Shown here one piece after another: positions 6,481 to 40,870 of a DNA stretch of 64,000 bases. A program made the translations under genes and the position numbers. Origin of the DNA: Halocaridina rubra (Eukaryota; Arthropoda; Malacostraca; Decapoda; Atyidae); the NCBI GenBank assembly GCA_037179515.1, contig JAXCGZ010000098.1:66001-130000 (forward strand), written 5' to 3'. The first letter of the stretch is position 1. The number at the start of each line of letters is the position of its first letter. The notes under the pieces were generated by a model, which was not told the origin of the DNA, ran no database searches, and saw only the letters and a list, made by a program, of their open reading frames with translations.

Positions 6481-6880
6481 TCCGCTCCCTCTCTCAGAAT
6501 CAATGCACCTTGCATACTATTTTTTAGGGAGTCAAACATCTCAAAAATATTTTGAGGGCATCAGGTTTTATATCTTCTAGGAATAGCCTAGGAATCTTTA
6601 GTATTTGATGGACTGTATTTAATTTTTAAGGATCTAGTGAGCATGCCAAAAAACGTTAGGCTAGCCTGTGATAATCATAAATATTGAAAATTACGCAATA
6701 TGGTAGGCCTAGCCTAGAAAAATCCAAATATATTAAATGAATGGTCTATGCTAATATAAACAAGCAAATGTACATCTCTGAAACCATTTTATTTATTTTC
6801 ATTGGGATGGAGAAAGCACAAACAAAACCAAGGGTTCTCTGTGACGTCATACCTGTTGGCCTGAACTTTTCAGGACAATT
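6481..6880. other. Unassigned AT-rich sequence
   Basis: No coding pattern, RNA gene or recognisable element seen. Short AGGCCTAGCCTAG-like motifs occur near 6700. Confidence 0.5.
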
Positions 6881-25522: not shown

Positions 25523-26930
25523 TATATGTGTATAGATAGATAGATAGATAGATAGATATATAGAGGTGTATTTTTGGAAGCAGCTCTTCATTTAAACATA
25601 TTTTATTTAACATGACCTTAGGTTTGATGGGAGAGGGGGCTTGGACCCCGGCTAAATGGTAGGTTATATAGTCGGTATCTAGTCTTATCACTGTTCCATG
25701 CCTCTGCCGTTCATGAGAGACCTTAAACCTTTACTATCTTGCTAGGTCTAGGCTTACAAAGTGATTCGATGTGGTAACAGCATATCTAGAGACAAATTTC
25801 AAGCTGCTTCTCATTGTTTATAATAAAACTATGCCTTCGGTAGCTCAGTGCACATAGCGCTTCCTTTCCATCAGGTGGTCCCGACTTCCACTCCCCAATA
25901 TGGCTTGTGAATCTTCTTGCTTCTCTCAAGCGTTTAGGTGAAGAGAAGGGTAGTGATGTTCTTCGAGAAGTAACCTCTGTTAGGTACCTCACTAGCACAT
26001 TGTTATATGTTTAAGGTCATTGCTAAAAAAGGAATTCAAATTCAAATTAAACTTGCTATTAATGGGGTTGTAAAGGTATGAAATTTGACATGGAATAATT
26101 GGTATAGTATCACGATTGTGTATAGATGATGATGGCTAAAGGGATTTCTCGCAACTGCTAGCCCAGTGAACTGTGATGGACGGGTGTGAGGGGAGCTGCC
26201 ATGTGATGAAGCGGTGGGGGTAAACCAGCTGCGGCTGTCGGGTCTTATTGTAGCATATCCTCACCCGCCTACCTTGTAGGTGACCCAAGCTGGGTGGAAG
26301 AGGGGGGAAATGTGGTTACCAATTAACCCCAAGGAGCTAAGTGGAGTAGTTGAGGTATATGTAAATCGTGGTGAATGCACGCTTCTTGGCTCGGCCACTC
26401 CCTTACAGGGGGAATGAGGCCATGTGTATATGTATAGTATCACGATAGTAATAAAACCTCTGTTGACATGAAAACAAAAAGCATAGGAAGGATTTTAAAA
26501 GTGCAGGTCACTGATTTTATTTGAAATATTGATGAATAACTGGTATCAGTATGTGCTTGGCGAACCGTGTTGATGTCGGATTGTTTTATTATCTTCTTTT
26601 ACTTCTTCATTATTTTATATATATCGCTGGAATTTAAATAAAACTTCGGGTCTTGGGAGAACGGACAAGGTATTTTTATTTTCGAAGTCTATTTTCAAAC
26701 AGCTGATAATCCCCAAAGTCTAGCGCTTTTCTACATCTTACAGTTCTCGGCCTAAGGCAGCCATGTTTATTCTGAACTGCCATAACTCCTTGACTGCCTG
26801 ACTCCTAAACTGCCTTACAAAGATTAAGGCTCCCCTTTTTTGTAAGCTTCTTCAGCTACAGTGGGGTGGGACTTATTGTCCCTAGATCTGTGCCAGACCA
26901 ATTACGCCAAATATTACATATAGACAAAAA
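25521..26930. other. Unassigned sequence, possible tRNA-like SINE remnant
   Basis: No protein motif seen. At 25833-25900, TTCGGTAGCTCAGTGCACAT followed by AGCGCTTCC resembles a tRNA A-box region but lacks a good B box, so it is at most a decayed SINE. At 26260-26420 GC-rich sequence shows no recognised family. Confidence 0.4.
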
Positions 26931-27231
26931 TTCCAATTGGTTTCTGTCTACATAGAGGGAATGGACTTCCGTCGTTGACCCTTAGCCATTGGTTAATTAC
27001 TTTCCCAGGGTTTGATCCCTGGGTCGCAGCTTCGTGATAGATTTTCCAAGAACTTCTTTACCATGGGTCACGGCACGTGATTCCAATTGGTTTCTGTCTA
27101 CGTAGAGGGGATGGACTTCCGTCGCTTGACCCTTGGCCATTGGTTGAATACTTACCCAGGGTTTGATCCCTGGGTCGAAGCTTCGTGAAAGCTTTTCCCA
27201 GAACTTCTTTACCATGGGTCACGGCACGTGA
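26931..27231. repeat. Tandem duplication, 150-bp unit, two copies
   Basis: Units start at 26931 and 27081 with TTCCAATTGGTTTCTGTCTA and end CATGGGTCACGGCACGTGA. They differ at roughly ten positions plus one indel. Each contains CCCAGGGTTTGATCCCTGGG, an imperfect palindrome. No coding potential. Confidence 0.9.

Positions 27232-32602: not shown

Positions 32603-32691
<89 letters not shown>
32603..32691. repeat. (TA)n microsatellite
   Basis: About 44 units, directly left of a SINE. Confidence 0.97.
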
Positions 32692-32693
<2 letters not shown>

Positions 32694-32695
<2 letters not shown>

Positions 32696-32891
32696 TCCGG
32701 TTCCGGTTTTACGTCACGGACTCCCTTATCTACCAAGGACTAGGACGGTTGCCTTCTTGCGAAGGACTTGTTTTGGCAGATGTAATCCTTACGCTGAGTG
32801 CATGCCCTTGCTAACCTCAGACCGTGACGGGGCGCGAACCCTCGACCTGACGCCTCAGAGTCGGAGACGCTACCGATTGAGCCACGGCGAC

Positions 32892-32892
<1 letters not shown>
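32694..32892 (-). mobile_element. tRNA-derived SINE, family S1, full-length reference copy
   Basis: On minus the head reads GTCGCCGTGGCTCAATCGGT then AGCGTCTCCGACTCTGAGGC and GTCAGGTCGAGGGTTCGCGC then CCC. It fits a Pol III A box (TGGCTCAATCGG) and B box (GGTTCGCGCCC). The CGACTCTGAG segment resembles the anticodon region of tRNA-Gln(CTG), an inference only. The tRNA-unrelated body ends GTGACGTAAAACCGGAAC. Both flanks are (TA)n. About 199 bp, the typical SINE size; no coding capacity, so it needs a LINE partner. Confidence 0.9.

Positions 32893-32982
<90 letters not shown>
32893..32982. repeat. (TA)n microsatellite
   Basis: About 44 units, directly right of the SINE. Confidence 0.97.
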
Positions 32983-36462: not shown

Positions 36463-36542
36463 TTGTACATGGGGACGTGCACATGGGCACTTCAAGTGAT
36501 ATTGCAGTTGTTAAACATTACAATCTATGAATCATTTTTTTT
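36463..36542. repeat. Left flank of the array insertion, with target duplication copy
   Basis: GTACATGGGGACGTGCACAT to GTTAAACATTACAATCTAT matches 34869-34940. ATTACAATCTAT at about 36516-36527 is repeated at the far end of the array (40647-40658). Confidence 0.85.
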
Positions 36543-36544
36543 TA

Positions 36545-39500
36545 CCCCGACCGGGACTCGAACCTAGAACTTATGATTACTAAGTCAAGGCGCTACCGCT
36601 ACACCACAGAAGGTTAAAAGGAATCCAACTTTATAGCTTATAGCTGCTATACTTAGGAATGAACGCATTCTATCTCAATGCCACTATGTTCATATTACAG
36701 ATTCCCCAACCTCACTCGGGGCTTCATTTTAGCCTTTAATTCAATTCCCAATCTCATTCGGGCCATGAAATTACCAAATAAGCACATTACATATGTGAAA
36801 ACATGAATCATTTTTTACCCCGACCAGGAATCGAACCTATGACTTATGATTACTAAGTCAAGGTGCTACCACTACACCACAGAAGGTTAAAAGGAATCCA
36901 ACCTTATAGCTTATATCTGCTATACTTAGGAATGAACGCATTCTATCTGAATGCCACTATGTTCATATTACAGATTCCCCAACCTCACTCGTGGCTTCAT
37001 TTTAGCATTTAATTCAATTCCCAATCTCATTCGGGCCATGAAATAACCAAATAAGCACATTACATATGTGAAAACATGAATTATTTTTTTACCCCGACTG
37101 GGACTCGAACCTAGGACTTATGATTACTAAGTCAAGGCACTACCACTACACCACAGAAGGTTAAAAGGAATCCAAACTTATAGCTTATATCTGCTATACT
37201 TAGGAATGAACGCATTCTATCTGAATGCCTCTATGTTCATATTACAGATTCCCCAACCTCACTCGTGGCTTCATTTTAGCATTTAATTCAATTCCCTATC
37301 TCATTCGGGCCATGAAATAACCAAATAAGCACATTACATATGAAAACTGAATCATATTTTACCCCGACCGGGACTCGAACCTAGGACTTATGATTACTAT
37401 GTCAAGGCGCTACCACTACACCACAGAAGGTTAAAAGGAATCTATCCTTATAGCTTATATCTGCTATACTTAGGAATGAACGCATTCTATCTGAATGCCA
37501 CTATGTTCATATTACAGATTTCCCAAAATCACTCGTGGCTTCATCTTAGCATTTAATTCAATTCCCAATCTCATTCGGGCCATGAAATAACCAAATAAGC
37601 ACATTACATATGTTAAAATATGAATAATTTTTTACCCCGACCGGGAATCGAACCTAGGACTTATGATTACTAAGTCAAGGCGCTACCACTACACCACAGA
37701 AGGTTAAAAGGAATCCAACCTTATAGCTTATATCTGCTATACTTAGGAATGAACGCATTCTATCTCAATGCCACTATGTTCATATTACAGATTCCCCAAC
37801 CTTACTTGTGGCTTCATTTTAGCATTTAATTCAATTCCCAATCTCATTCGGGCCATGAAATAACCAAATAAGCACATTACATATGTGAAAACATGAATCA
37901 TTTTTTACCCCGACCAGGAATCGAACCTATGACTTATGATTACTAAGTCAAGGTGCTACCACTACACCACAGAAGGTTAAAAGGAATCCAACCTTATAGC
38001 TTATATCTGCTATACTTAGGAATGAACGCATTCTATCTGAATGCCACTATGTTCATATTACAGATTCCCCAACCTCACTCGTGGCTTCATTTTAGCATTT
38101 AATTCAATTCCCAATCTCATTCGGGCCATGAAATAACCAAATAAGCACATTACATATGTGAAAACATGAATAATTTTTTTACCCCGACTGGGAATCGAAC
38201 CTAGGACTTATGATTACTAAGTCAAGGCACTACCACTACACCACAGAAGGTTAAAAGGAATCCAAACTTATAGCTTATATCTGCTATACTTAGGAATGAA
38301 CGCATTCTATCTGAATGCCTCTATGTTCATATTACAGATTCCTCAACCTCACTCGTGGCTTCATTTTAGCATTTAATTCAATTCCCTATCTCATTCGGGC
38401 CATGAAATAACCAAATAAGCACATTACATATGAAAACTGAATCATATTTTACCCCGACCGGGACTCGAACCTAGGACTTATGATTACTAGGTCAAGGCAC
38501 TACCACTACACCACAGAAGGTTAAAAGGAATCTATCCTTATAGCTTATATCTGCTATACTTAGGAATGAACGCATTCTATCTGAATGCCACTATGTTCAT
38601 ATTACAGATTTCCCAAAATCACTCATGGCTTCATTTTAGCATTTAATTCAATTCCCAATCTCATTCGGGCCATGAAATAACCAAATAAGCACATTACATA
38701 TGTTAAAACATGAATAATTTTTTACCCCGACCGGGAATCGAACCTAGGACTTATGATTACTAAGTCAAGGCGCTACCACTACACCACAGAAGGTTAAAAG
38801 GAATCCAACCTTATAGCTTATATCTGCTATACTTAGGAATGAACGCATTCTATCTCAAAGCCACTATGTTCATATTACAGATTCCCCAACCTTACTTGTG
38901 GCTTCATTTTAGCATTTAATTCAATTCCCAATCTCATTCGGGCCATGAAATAACCAATTAAGCACATTACATATGTGAAAACATGAATCATATTTTACCC
39001 CGACTGGGACTCAAACCTAGGACTTATGATTACTAAGTCAAGGCGCTACCACTACACCACAGAAGGTTAAAAGGAATCCAACTTTATAGCTTATATCTGC
39101 TATATTTAGGAATGAACGCATTCTATCTGAATGCCATTATGTTTATATTACAGATTTCCCAACCTCACTCGTGGCCTTATTTTAGCATTTAATTCAATTC
39201 CCAATCTCATTCGGGCCATGAAATAACCAAATAAGCACATTACATATGTGAAAACATGAATCATATTTTACCCCGACCGGGACTCAAACCTAGGACTTAT
39301 GATTACTAAGTCAAGGCGCTACCACTACACCACAGAAGGTTAAAAGGAATCCAACCTTATAGCTTATATCGGCTATACTTAGGAATGAACGCATTCTATG
39401 TGAATGCCACTATGTTCATATTACAGATTCCCCAACCTCACTCATGGCTTCATTTTAGAATTTAATTCAATTCCCAATCTCATTTGGATCATGAAATTAC

Positions 39501-40601
39501 CAAATAAGCACATTACATATGTGAAAACATGAATCATTTTTTACCCCGACCAGGACTCGAACCTAGGACTTATGATTACTAAGTCAAGGCGCTATGACTA
39601 CACCACAGAAGGTTAAAAGGAATCCAACCTTATAGCTTATATCTGTTATACTTAGGAATGAACGCATTCTATCTGAATGCCACTATGCTCATATTACAGA
39701 TTCCCCAACCTCACTCGTGGCTTCATTTTAGCATTTAATTCAATTGCCAATCTCATTCGGGCCATGAAATAACCAAATAAGCACATTACATATGTGAAAA
39801 CATGAATCAATTTTTACCCCTACCGGGACTCGAACCTAGGACTTATGATTACTAAGTAAAGGCGCTACCACTACACCACAGAAGGTTAAAGGGAATCCAA
39901 CCTGTAATATGAACATAGTGGCATTCAGATAGAATGCGTTCATTCCTAAGTATAGCAGATATAAGCTGTAAGGTTGGATTCCTTTTAACCTTCTGTGGTG
40001 TAGTGGTAGCGCCTTGACTTAGTAATCATAAGTCTTAGGTTCGAGTCCCGGTCGGGGTAAAAAATGATTCATGTTTTCACATATGTAATGTGCTTATTTG
40101 GTTATTTCATGGCCCGAATGAGATTGGGAGTTGAATTAAATGCTAAAATGAAGCCACTAGTGAGGCTGGGGAATCTGTAATATGAACATAGTGGCATTCA
40201 GATAGAATGCGTTCATTCCTAAGTATAGCAGATATAAGCTATAAGGTTAGATTCCTTTTAACCTTCTGTGGTGTAGTGGTAGCGCCTTGACCTAGTAATC
40301 ATAAGTCCTAGGTTCGAGTCCCGGTCGGGGTAAAATGATTCATGTTTTCACATATGTAATGTGCTTATTTGGTTATTTCATGGCCCGAATGAGATTGGGA
40401 ATTGAATTAAATGCTAAAATGAAGCCACGAGTGAGGTTGGGGAATCTGTAATATGAACATAGTGGCATTCAGATAGAATGCGTTCATTCCTAAGTATAGC
40501 AGATATAAGCTATAAGGTTGGATTCCTTTTAACCTTCTGTGGTGTAGTGGTAGCACCTTGACTTAGTAATCATATGTCCTAGGTTCGAGTCACGGTCGGG
40601 G
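36545..40601. pseudogene. Sixteen tRNA-like sequences (degenerate tRNA), 69 nt each
   Basis: Minus copies: 36545-36613, 36818-36886, 37092-37160, 37362-37430, 37635-37703, 37908-37976, 38182-38250, 38452-38520, 38725-38793, 38998-39066, 39271-39339, 39544-39612, 39817-39885. Plus copies: 39989-40057, 40262-40330, 40533-40601. The sense strand has an A box TGGTGTAGTGG, D-stem GTGT/GCGC, and a B box GGTTCGAGTCC or GGTTCGATTCC (GGTTTGAGTCC at 38998 and 39271). The T-loop arm has one A-C mismatch. The acceptor stem keeps five pairs, three of them wobble, with two mismatches. The anticodon arm is irregular: TTAGTAA recalls tRNA-Thr(AGT), a weak inference. TTTT, a possible weak Pol III stop, lies about 20 nt downstream. 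Probably a tRNA-derived repeat and not a working tRNA. Confidence 0.85.
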
Positions 40602-40646
40602 TAAAAAATGATTAATGTTTTCACATATGTAATGTGCTTATTTGGT
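39903..40646 (+). repeat. Inverted arm of the tRNA-like array
   Basis: The left, minus-oriented series stops at GGAATCCAACCT (39902) and plus-oriented sequence starts at GTAATATGAACATAGTGG with no spacer. The shared CT at the joint suggests 2-bp microhomology. The last three units can fold on the preceding three as arms of about 740 bp. Confidence 0.93.
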
Positions 40647-40870
40647 TATTACAATCTATATTTGGTCATGCATAAATAAAATATTGATAGAATTTTCAAT
40701 TCATTTTAAATATCATAGCAAGTAATTAAAAAGAAAATATAGTGTAATAATTGACTGATGGCAGAAGAGCACTCTGCAATTATTAATTAAGAGTAACATA
40801 TTATGGTTTACATGTATTAAAGGCAGAAGAGCACTCTGCAATTATTGATTAAGAGTAATATTTGTAACAA
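40643..40870. repeat. Right flank of the array insertion, with internal duplication
   Basis: It resumes the paralogue of 34940-35088 after a second ATTACAATCTAT. A phrase GGCAGAAGAGCACTCTGCAA then TTATT(A/G)ATTAAGAGTAA appears twice (about 40760 and 40822). Confidence 0.82.

Follow-up and report, generated by a model that had tools for sequence, protein, structure and literature searches.

A tandem array with a tRNA-like core in Halocaridina rubra as a copy of a dispersed, probably Penelope-mobilised element

Penelope-like elements (PLEs), retrozymes and tRNA-derived short interspersed elements (SINEs) are described systems that resemble the tandem array considered here, which occupies positions 36529-40647 of a 64,000-nucleotide stretch of Halocaridina rubra DNA (assembly GCA_037179515.1, contig JAXCGZ010000098.1, positions 66,001 to 130,000; the whole stretch is called the window) and repeats a 273-bp unit with a tRNA-like core. 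Rather than a satellite grown in place, the array is a single discrete insert of a kind spread through the genome. With a probability of roughly 0.6, it represents an old copy of a non-autonomous, abundant retroelement mobilised by PLEs, whose 273-bp unit carries a core of the RNA polymerase III (Pol III) type. Insertion probably took place in one event by a Penelope-type reverse transcriptase (RT), and the element is perhaps retrozyme-like, copied round an RNA circle.

According to the cited sections of PMC11167929, a PLE protein purified from Anolis sequence cuts the two strands of the target, preferably where it is AT-rich, and extends both, and two start sites are used inside the RNA, their spacing accounting for the 30-40-bp tail of genomic copies; the same sections describe the steps after first priming as not yet validated. 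For rotifers, the cited parts of PMC3846280 report that PLE inserts are mostly head-to-head inverted copies with a 31-bp tail at one inverted end, that 8-10-bp duplications accompany them, with microhomology and palindromes at the inversions, and that the terminal parts of a PLE suffice to mobilise an unrelated gene. Hammerhead retrozymes are presented in the cited parts of PMC7229834 as tandem units of 150-450 bp with circular RNAs, and RTs, perhaps those of PLEs (named as strong candidates only), are proposed there to copy the circles into tandem DNA.

With tRNA-derived SINEs, the element shares apparent A and B boxes at tRNA spacing and short 5′-truncated copies, whereas the genomic copies fetched here (blocks) are mostly tandem and two-armed, with fixed internal ends and many units per insert. 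L1 inserts formed by twin priming show head-to-head inversion with microhomology between target duplications; the present blocks share the inversion and the microhomology, and the 12-bp repeat of the window copy is a putative duplication, but the blocks differ in their fixed internal ends (A and B, below) and tandem amplification. Xenopus OAX, or satellite I, is likewise tandemly repeated and has a tRNA-like Pol III promoter, with a longer unit; to our knowledge, it is not known as dispersed two-armed inserts with a tail. The blocks resemble PLE inserts by structure, retrozymes by unit (minus the hammerhead), and tRNA-derived SINEs by promoter but not by form. No tRNA-cored, PLE-mobilised tandem element was described in the titles and abstracts listed by searches of an open-access library, subscription papers being outside this scope.

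The initial annotation of the window had reported sixteen tRNA-like cores in tandem units of about 273 bp, and both Tandem Repeats Finder (TRF) and BLAST bore this out. TRF detected two periods, one of 273 bp at 36538-39903 (12.3 copies), the other of 271 bp at 39902-40650 (2.8 copies). BLAST with one unit (273 bp, 38.8% GC) located 16 cores of about 70 nt, 13 on the minus strand followed by 3 on the plus strand, and full units were 94-97% identical to the query unit. A head-to-head inversion near 39902, a 12-bp repeat at the edges and a four-unit higher-order repeat were absent from that annotation. The parts of the array are listed below.

36517-36528, no strand: left 12-bp direct repeat ATTACAATCTAT, putative target-site duplication, edge ambiguous by 1-3 bp
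36529-39903, minus strand: left arm with 13 tRNA-like cores in 273-bp units; outer end (end A) close to unit position 84, inner end at 256
36613-38793, minus strand: four-unit higher-order duplication within the left arm, units pairing at offset 4
39902-39903, no strand: head-to-head inversion junction with a 2-bp overlap (CT), joining unit position 256 antisense to 187 sense
39902-40647, plus strand: right arm, beginning at unit position 187, with two complete units plus a third core and its outer end (B) near 117-118
40648-40659, no strand: right 12-bp direct repeat ATTACAATCTAT, identical in sequence to the left copy

At end A of the window copy, the program stopped at unit position 76, where the T run is longer, and the match was followed by eye to 84. 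When random pairs of breakpoints were drawn in the window, repeats of at least 11 bp were obtained in 500 of 200,000 trials, 99 of them in non-simple sequence.

The host genome (1.18 Gb, 21,031 contigs) yielded at least 167 matches to the one-unit query (best 40 of 1,763 candidates scored). Exact patterns for the two ends gave 2,560 matches for end A and 3,195 for end B, compared with 0 for the reversed control. Viral contigs, genome contigs, phages and plasmids, each searched with one pattern or query, gave no match. The loci fetched from the host genome comprised 20 stretches around unit matches, six around end-A matches from the top of the list, six around end-A variants, and PLE loci; this sample is biased toward good unit matches and toward end A, and the evidence on the fixed unit phase of the ends comes from it. 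The fetched copies were mostly tandem blocks, together with a few short 5′-truncated single-arm copies, and not single dispersed SINEs. The initial description as a long tandem satellite stood in part: tandem arrays are common among these copies, but the form is that of a discrete two-armed insert.

A few of the 2,560 end-A matches lie inside arrays. In the six stretches fetched around end-A matches, all seven A ends were block ends in (AT)n. Eleven of the 2,560 matches carry G or C immediately before TATG; six of these were fetched, of which L035 and L039 were block ends in altered (AT)n and L036, L037, L038 and L040 were array interiors.

Most sampled blocks end at unit position 84 (A) or 108-118 (B), adjoining (AT)n; a few block ends were positioned by eye. 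Across loci L009-L028, every outward end adjoining regular (AT)n (28/28) fell at A (11) or B (17). Five of the outward ends seen lie outside (AT)n: the window copy and the second L046 block have two each (75 and 113 in the latter), and L017 has one (124). At L025 and L039, the AT repeat was less regular. Both outer ends were visible in 15 two-armed blocks, 13 of which pair one A with one B: the window copy, L010-L014, L024 (two blocks), L025, L028, L030, L031 and L033. The A/B pairing held in 13 of 14 scored blocks (p 0.0009). Both ends were also visible in seven one-armed blocks (L015, L017, the second of L020, the first of L021, the second of L022, L029 and L035). At L022, a 12-unit minus array stops at 6504, which is unit position 25, and the sequence beyond resembles neither the unit nor (AT)n.

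Regarding the target sites, BLAST of 20 masked flanks from 11 blocks produced 43 rows between loci, and some flanks share dispersed repeats. In the left flanks of L024, L031 and L033, the same dispersed repeat stops beside the (AT)n of the block, so the target can be the (AT)n tail of another repeat. The sites are taken as independent because their inversion junctions differ.

All strand switches seen inside blocks run from minus to plus, and the sequence entered from either flank is antisense to the unit. It follows that the sense strand was copied at both target 3′ ends, suggesting RNA as the template. No two of the 21 distinct inversion junctions are alike. An overlap of at least 2 bp was present in 15 of the 21 (0.167 expected, p 4e-8), and six junctions carry 1-6 inserted bases. 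The arms usually meet at unrelated unit positions, and the phases of junctions and inner ends do not cluster (P 0.18 with the circular query, 22 rows, one of them a double). A pile-up of inner ends at unit position 1, the supposed transcription start, had been hinted at by a linear query and was dropped, as it was not significant with the circular one.

Variation among units was compared within and between blocks. In four blocks, a private variant is present in every unit of both arms: 111T>A in L011 (plus arm 4/4, minus arm 7/7), 214A>C in L012 (7/7 and 5/5), 188T>C in L014 (3/3 and 4/4) and 165G>C in L024 (1/1 and 7/7). In L016, a private deletion of 113-114 is carried by 3/4 units of the plus arm and 4/4 of the minus arm. 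No private variant spanning both arms was found in the other blocks, the window copy and L028 included. Further variants, given as those in single units and those shared by two or more units, numbered 3/0 in L010, 24/0 in L016, 13/0 in L028, 27/1 in L025, 20/1 in L011 and 14/1 in L014; the less clean blocks were L012 (13/5), L024 (13/5), L023 (11/3) and L009 (37/8). In L010, the difference between units is 0.12% inside the block, the two arms compared with each other included, and 2.8% from other blocks; for all blocks, the unit difference was 3.95% within and 4.63% between. The nearest relative of most units lies in the same block, with L020 (0/2) as an exception.

The young blocks are read as stars, each produced from a single monomer by repeated copying during one event. 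For these blocks, the recent homogenisation suggested by the initial annotation is better replaced by such one-shot amplification. The window copy itself is old, with a later four-unit duplication. It shares variants among subsets of its units, as do the long one-directional arrays L019, L026/27, L022 and L015; later local duplication occurs too.

Two strings are visible directly in the core, the A-box-like TGGTGTAGTGG and GGTTCGANTCC as B box; both are named after the boxes of Pol III promoters. The B boxes of the 16 window cores were GGTTCGAGTCC (8), GGTTCGATTCC (5), GGTTTGAGTCC (2) and GGTTCGAGTCA (1), and 13 of the 16 match fully or vary at the N position only, as had been noted initially. 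The boxes are present and one copy was aligned end to end (1-71) to the Rfam tRNA model, but with 21.8 bits against a gathering score of 29; two further copies were aligned partly, with 18.9 bits. ARAGORN called no tRNA in the window, and Rfam at the gathering score found no family there. Given these sub-threshold scores and the ARAGORN result, the core is described as tRNA-like or decayed rather than as a tRNA gene. Sense-strand T4 runs lie at unit positions 86-89 and 268-271, and by the usual rule we presume them to be possible Pol III terminators; speculatively, a Pol III transcript might terminate at the run just upstream of unit position 1.

The initial annotation had also raised selection on the promoter, which the within-block changes do not support. 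The core changed as fast as the rest, with 328/18541 (0.0177) compared to 910/49809 (0.0183) elsewhere (p 0.63). Outside CpG sites, the core was slightly slower (0.0133 versus 0.0171, p 0.0007). Between blocks, one of 16 fixed variants falls inside the core (p 0.09), and seven of the 16 fall at unit positions 109-114 or 115, exactly at end B, as if subfamilies differed chiefly at the start site.

The circular fold of the family consensus was more stable than dinucleotide shuffles (z -2.9). A hammerhead retrozyme was considered and rejected, as no ribozyme appeared in the array, in L010 or in the consensus. Rfam gave no hammerhead at E up to 10 for the array or up to 5 for L010, and the CTGANGA core was absent from both strands of the consensus, although degenerate hammerhead forms could still be present.

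The host genome contains PLEs, with at least 27 GIY-YIG matches (best 150 of 589 candidates scored) and with RT and GIY-YIG within one open stretch of 715 residues. Of 1,317 relatives of the PLE protein, 120 were listed; the named ones among these are decapods (Penaeus, Procambarus, Cherax) at 40-42%, as fits a decapod host, and others reach up to 57%. Minus-then-plus PLE pairs were located on contigs C17462, C14194 and C3562, those on C14194 and C3562 being seen in the sequence. At L049 and L050, the PLE copies themselves lie head to head. Near the 5′ part at L049, a hairpin ending in GGTCACGAAA looked faintly hammerhead-like by eye and had no Rfam match at E up to 5. At L046 (1130-2093), the 3′ fragment of a PLE, in antisense, directly abuts a short inverted unit arm and a plus arm, the plus arm ending at B in non-AT sequence; PLE RNA and unit RNA may have gone into one mixed insert here. 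Since the 273-bp unit is too short for an RT and GIY-YIG frame of its own, it is described as mobilised by a PLE and not as being one. A 24-nt match between the unit and a resident PLE, a candidate for a shared start site, was first placed 119 nt into the PLE frame, as in the published PLE; a second PLE copy shows an earlier frame start, which puts the match at about 436 nt, and the candidate was dropped.

In the features given in the cited parts of the literature, endonuclease-bearing PLEs (Penelope/Poseidon) are like the blocks in their head-to-head copies, tandem units, microhomology, AT-rich cuts, two internal start sites and optional tail of about 31 bp, and their 8-10-bp duplications may be likened to the 12 bp of the window copy. 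The tail of about 30-40 bp at one end that marks PLEs corresponds here to the ends at 84 and 108-118. In contrast to PLEs, the unit is 273 bp long, codes for no enzyme and has a tRNA-like core. With the metazoan retrozymes of PMC7229834, as far as its cited parts describe them, the element shares low-GC tandem units (150-450 bp there) and multimers, and their duplications above 4 bp may be likened to the 12 bp of the window copy. Unlike in retrozymes, no hammerhead was found and a tRNA-like core stands in its place; two-armed inserts are not mentioned in those parts.

A sequence of steps would account for the blocks. An RT of the PLE kind would cut both strands of an AT-rich target, and both target 3′ ends would be extended on sense RNA of the unit. 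Copying would start at two internal sites of the RNA separated by 24-34 nt, A at 84 and B at 108-118, and each strand would pass the unit many times, most simply on a circular template made of one monomer. Microhomology would then serve to join both cDNA arms into a head-to-head two-armed array. The fixed ends, the A/B pairing, the antisense reading from both flanks, the varied microhomology junctions and the private variants in both arms of several blocks are seen in the sequences; the PLE enzyme, the circular RNA and the transcription by Pol III we infer. Mobilisation by a PLE, perhaps with copying round a circle, is proposed because the blocks bear the marks reported in PMC11167929 and PMC3846280 and show the outcome expected from PMC7229834. 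The fullest version is put forward only tentatively, at somewhat below even odds: a Pol III-type tRNA-like RNA that has no catalogued ribozyme would form a 273-nt circle and be copied round by a Penelope-type RT from both cut ends of (AT)n, the array being born in a single insertion.

Several points weigh against PLE mobilisation from a circle. Among the two-armed blocks, L023 looks like A+A, with a tiny second arm, and the L046 block has B together with an end at 75. The putative 12-bp target duplication is visible in the window copy only, since ends A and B elsewhere sit in (AT)n, which hides it. L012, L023, L024 and L014 hold some variants common to a few units; the nearest relative lies in the same block for no L028 unit (0/4) and for 9/14 units of the window copy. 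No PLE family was tied to the unit by sequence, one PLE family having been examined: the 24-nt match is at chance level, 23 of 1000 shuffles reaching it over the whole PLE, and two exact gap patterns for PLE ends in (AT)n gave 0 matches each. Making the circle would take a ribozyme or some other step, and no hammerhead was found. As to published models, the cited sections of PMC11167929 hold hammerhead cutting to be unnecessary and favour unprocessed multi-copy RNA, not a circle, as the substrate, while those of PMC3846280 ascribe the inverts to self-priming on an antisense template and report no cross-mobilisation between the families studied there. The less clean blocks and these alternative models lowered our confidence slightly.

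The same type of enzyme and two-strand priming might have used a long linear multimeric RNA, transcribed from an already homogeneous array, with no circle. This is what PMC11167929, in the sections cited, pictures for PLEs as an mRNA of several copies that needs no hammerhead cutting, and inner arm ends with no preferred phase would be expected from a long multimer as well. It would have to explain why several blocks each carry a variant of their own throughout, or nearly throughout, the two arms, with changes otherwise mostly confined to single units; the source array would need to be made afresh from one monomer every time. We consider a linear template unlikely, while leaving it some weight.

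Ordinary SINE retrotransposition driven by long interspersed elements (LINEs), with L1-like twin priming of multimeric transcripts, appears improbable. Head-to-head inversion with microhomology is a mark of twin priming, and 5′-truncated one-armed copies do exist (L020, L021, L029). Twin priming predicts a variable second end, however; here both outer ends are fixed internal positions, A being paired with B in 13 of 15 blocks, and one monomer per block is not predicted.

Arms arising by self-priming on an antisense PLE-type template, as the cited parts of PMC3846280 propose for rotifer Penelope elements, would agree with the junction of L031, a 20-bp palindrome. Self-complementary overlaps make up only 2 of 15, that of L031 and the 4-bp CATG of L016, and arms that usually meet at unrelated unit positions speak against it, which leaves this origin very improbable.

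Homogenisation of a satellite in place, by unequal exchange and gene conversion, would fit the four-unit duplication of the window copy and the variants shared among unit subsets in L019, L026/27, L022 and L015, but it can hardly be reconciled with discrete ends, thousands of end matches genome-wide, the direct repeat around the window copy and private variants that extend across the inversion. Foldback elements have long inverted arms of tandem units, resembling the blocks, and junction microhomology would suit either a DNA transposon of the foldback type or the capture of circular DNA where (AT)n had broken; both are scarcely credible, as the outer ends differ in sequence (84 versus 108-118) in 13 of 15 blocks and so form no matching terminal inverted repeats, and only head-to-head switches were seen, although a double-stranded DNA source should produce the opposite kind as well.

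Elsewhere in the window, a second, unrelated tRNA-like element was noted by eye on the minus strand at 32692-32894 (GTGGCTCAATCGGTAGCG ... GGGTTCGCGCCCC), flanked by (AT)n runs at 32604-32691 and 32895-32982. At 26930-27231, there are two tandem copies of a 151-bp unit holding GGGTTTGATCCC, a B-box-like string. Long microsatellites, chiefly (AT)n, (TC)n and (ATT)n, are abundant throughout the window, which also contains several reverse-transcriptase-like frames, as judged by eye.

If mobilisation by a PLE from an RNA circle is true, the blocks would be a genomic record of rolling-circle reverse transcription and would represent a Pol III-promoted class of retrozyme-like element. It is an open question how PLEs finish their insertion and how retrozyme arrays come about, and this genome offers thousands of blocks bearing the features that reverse transcription from internal starts on two strands, together with amplification from one monomer, should leave. 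With such blocks present by the thousands, spacing, arm lengths and junctions are measurable in one genome. An apparent satellite can arise by one insertion, and uniform units need not imply homogenisation or selection.

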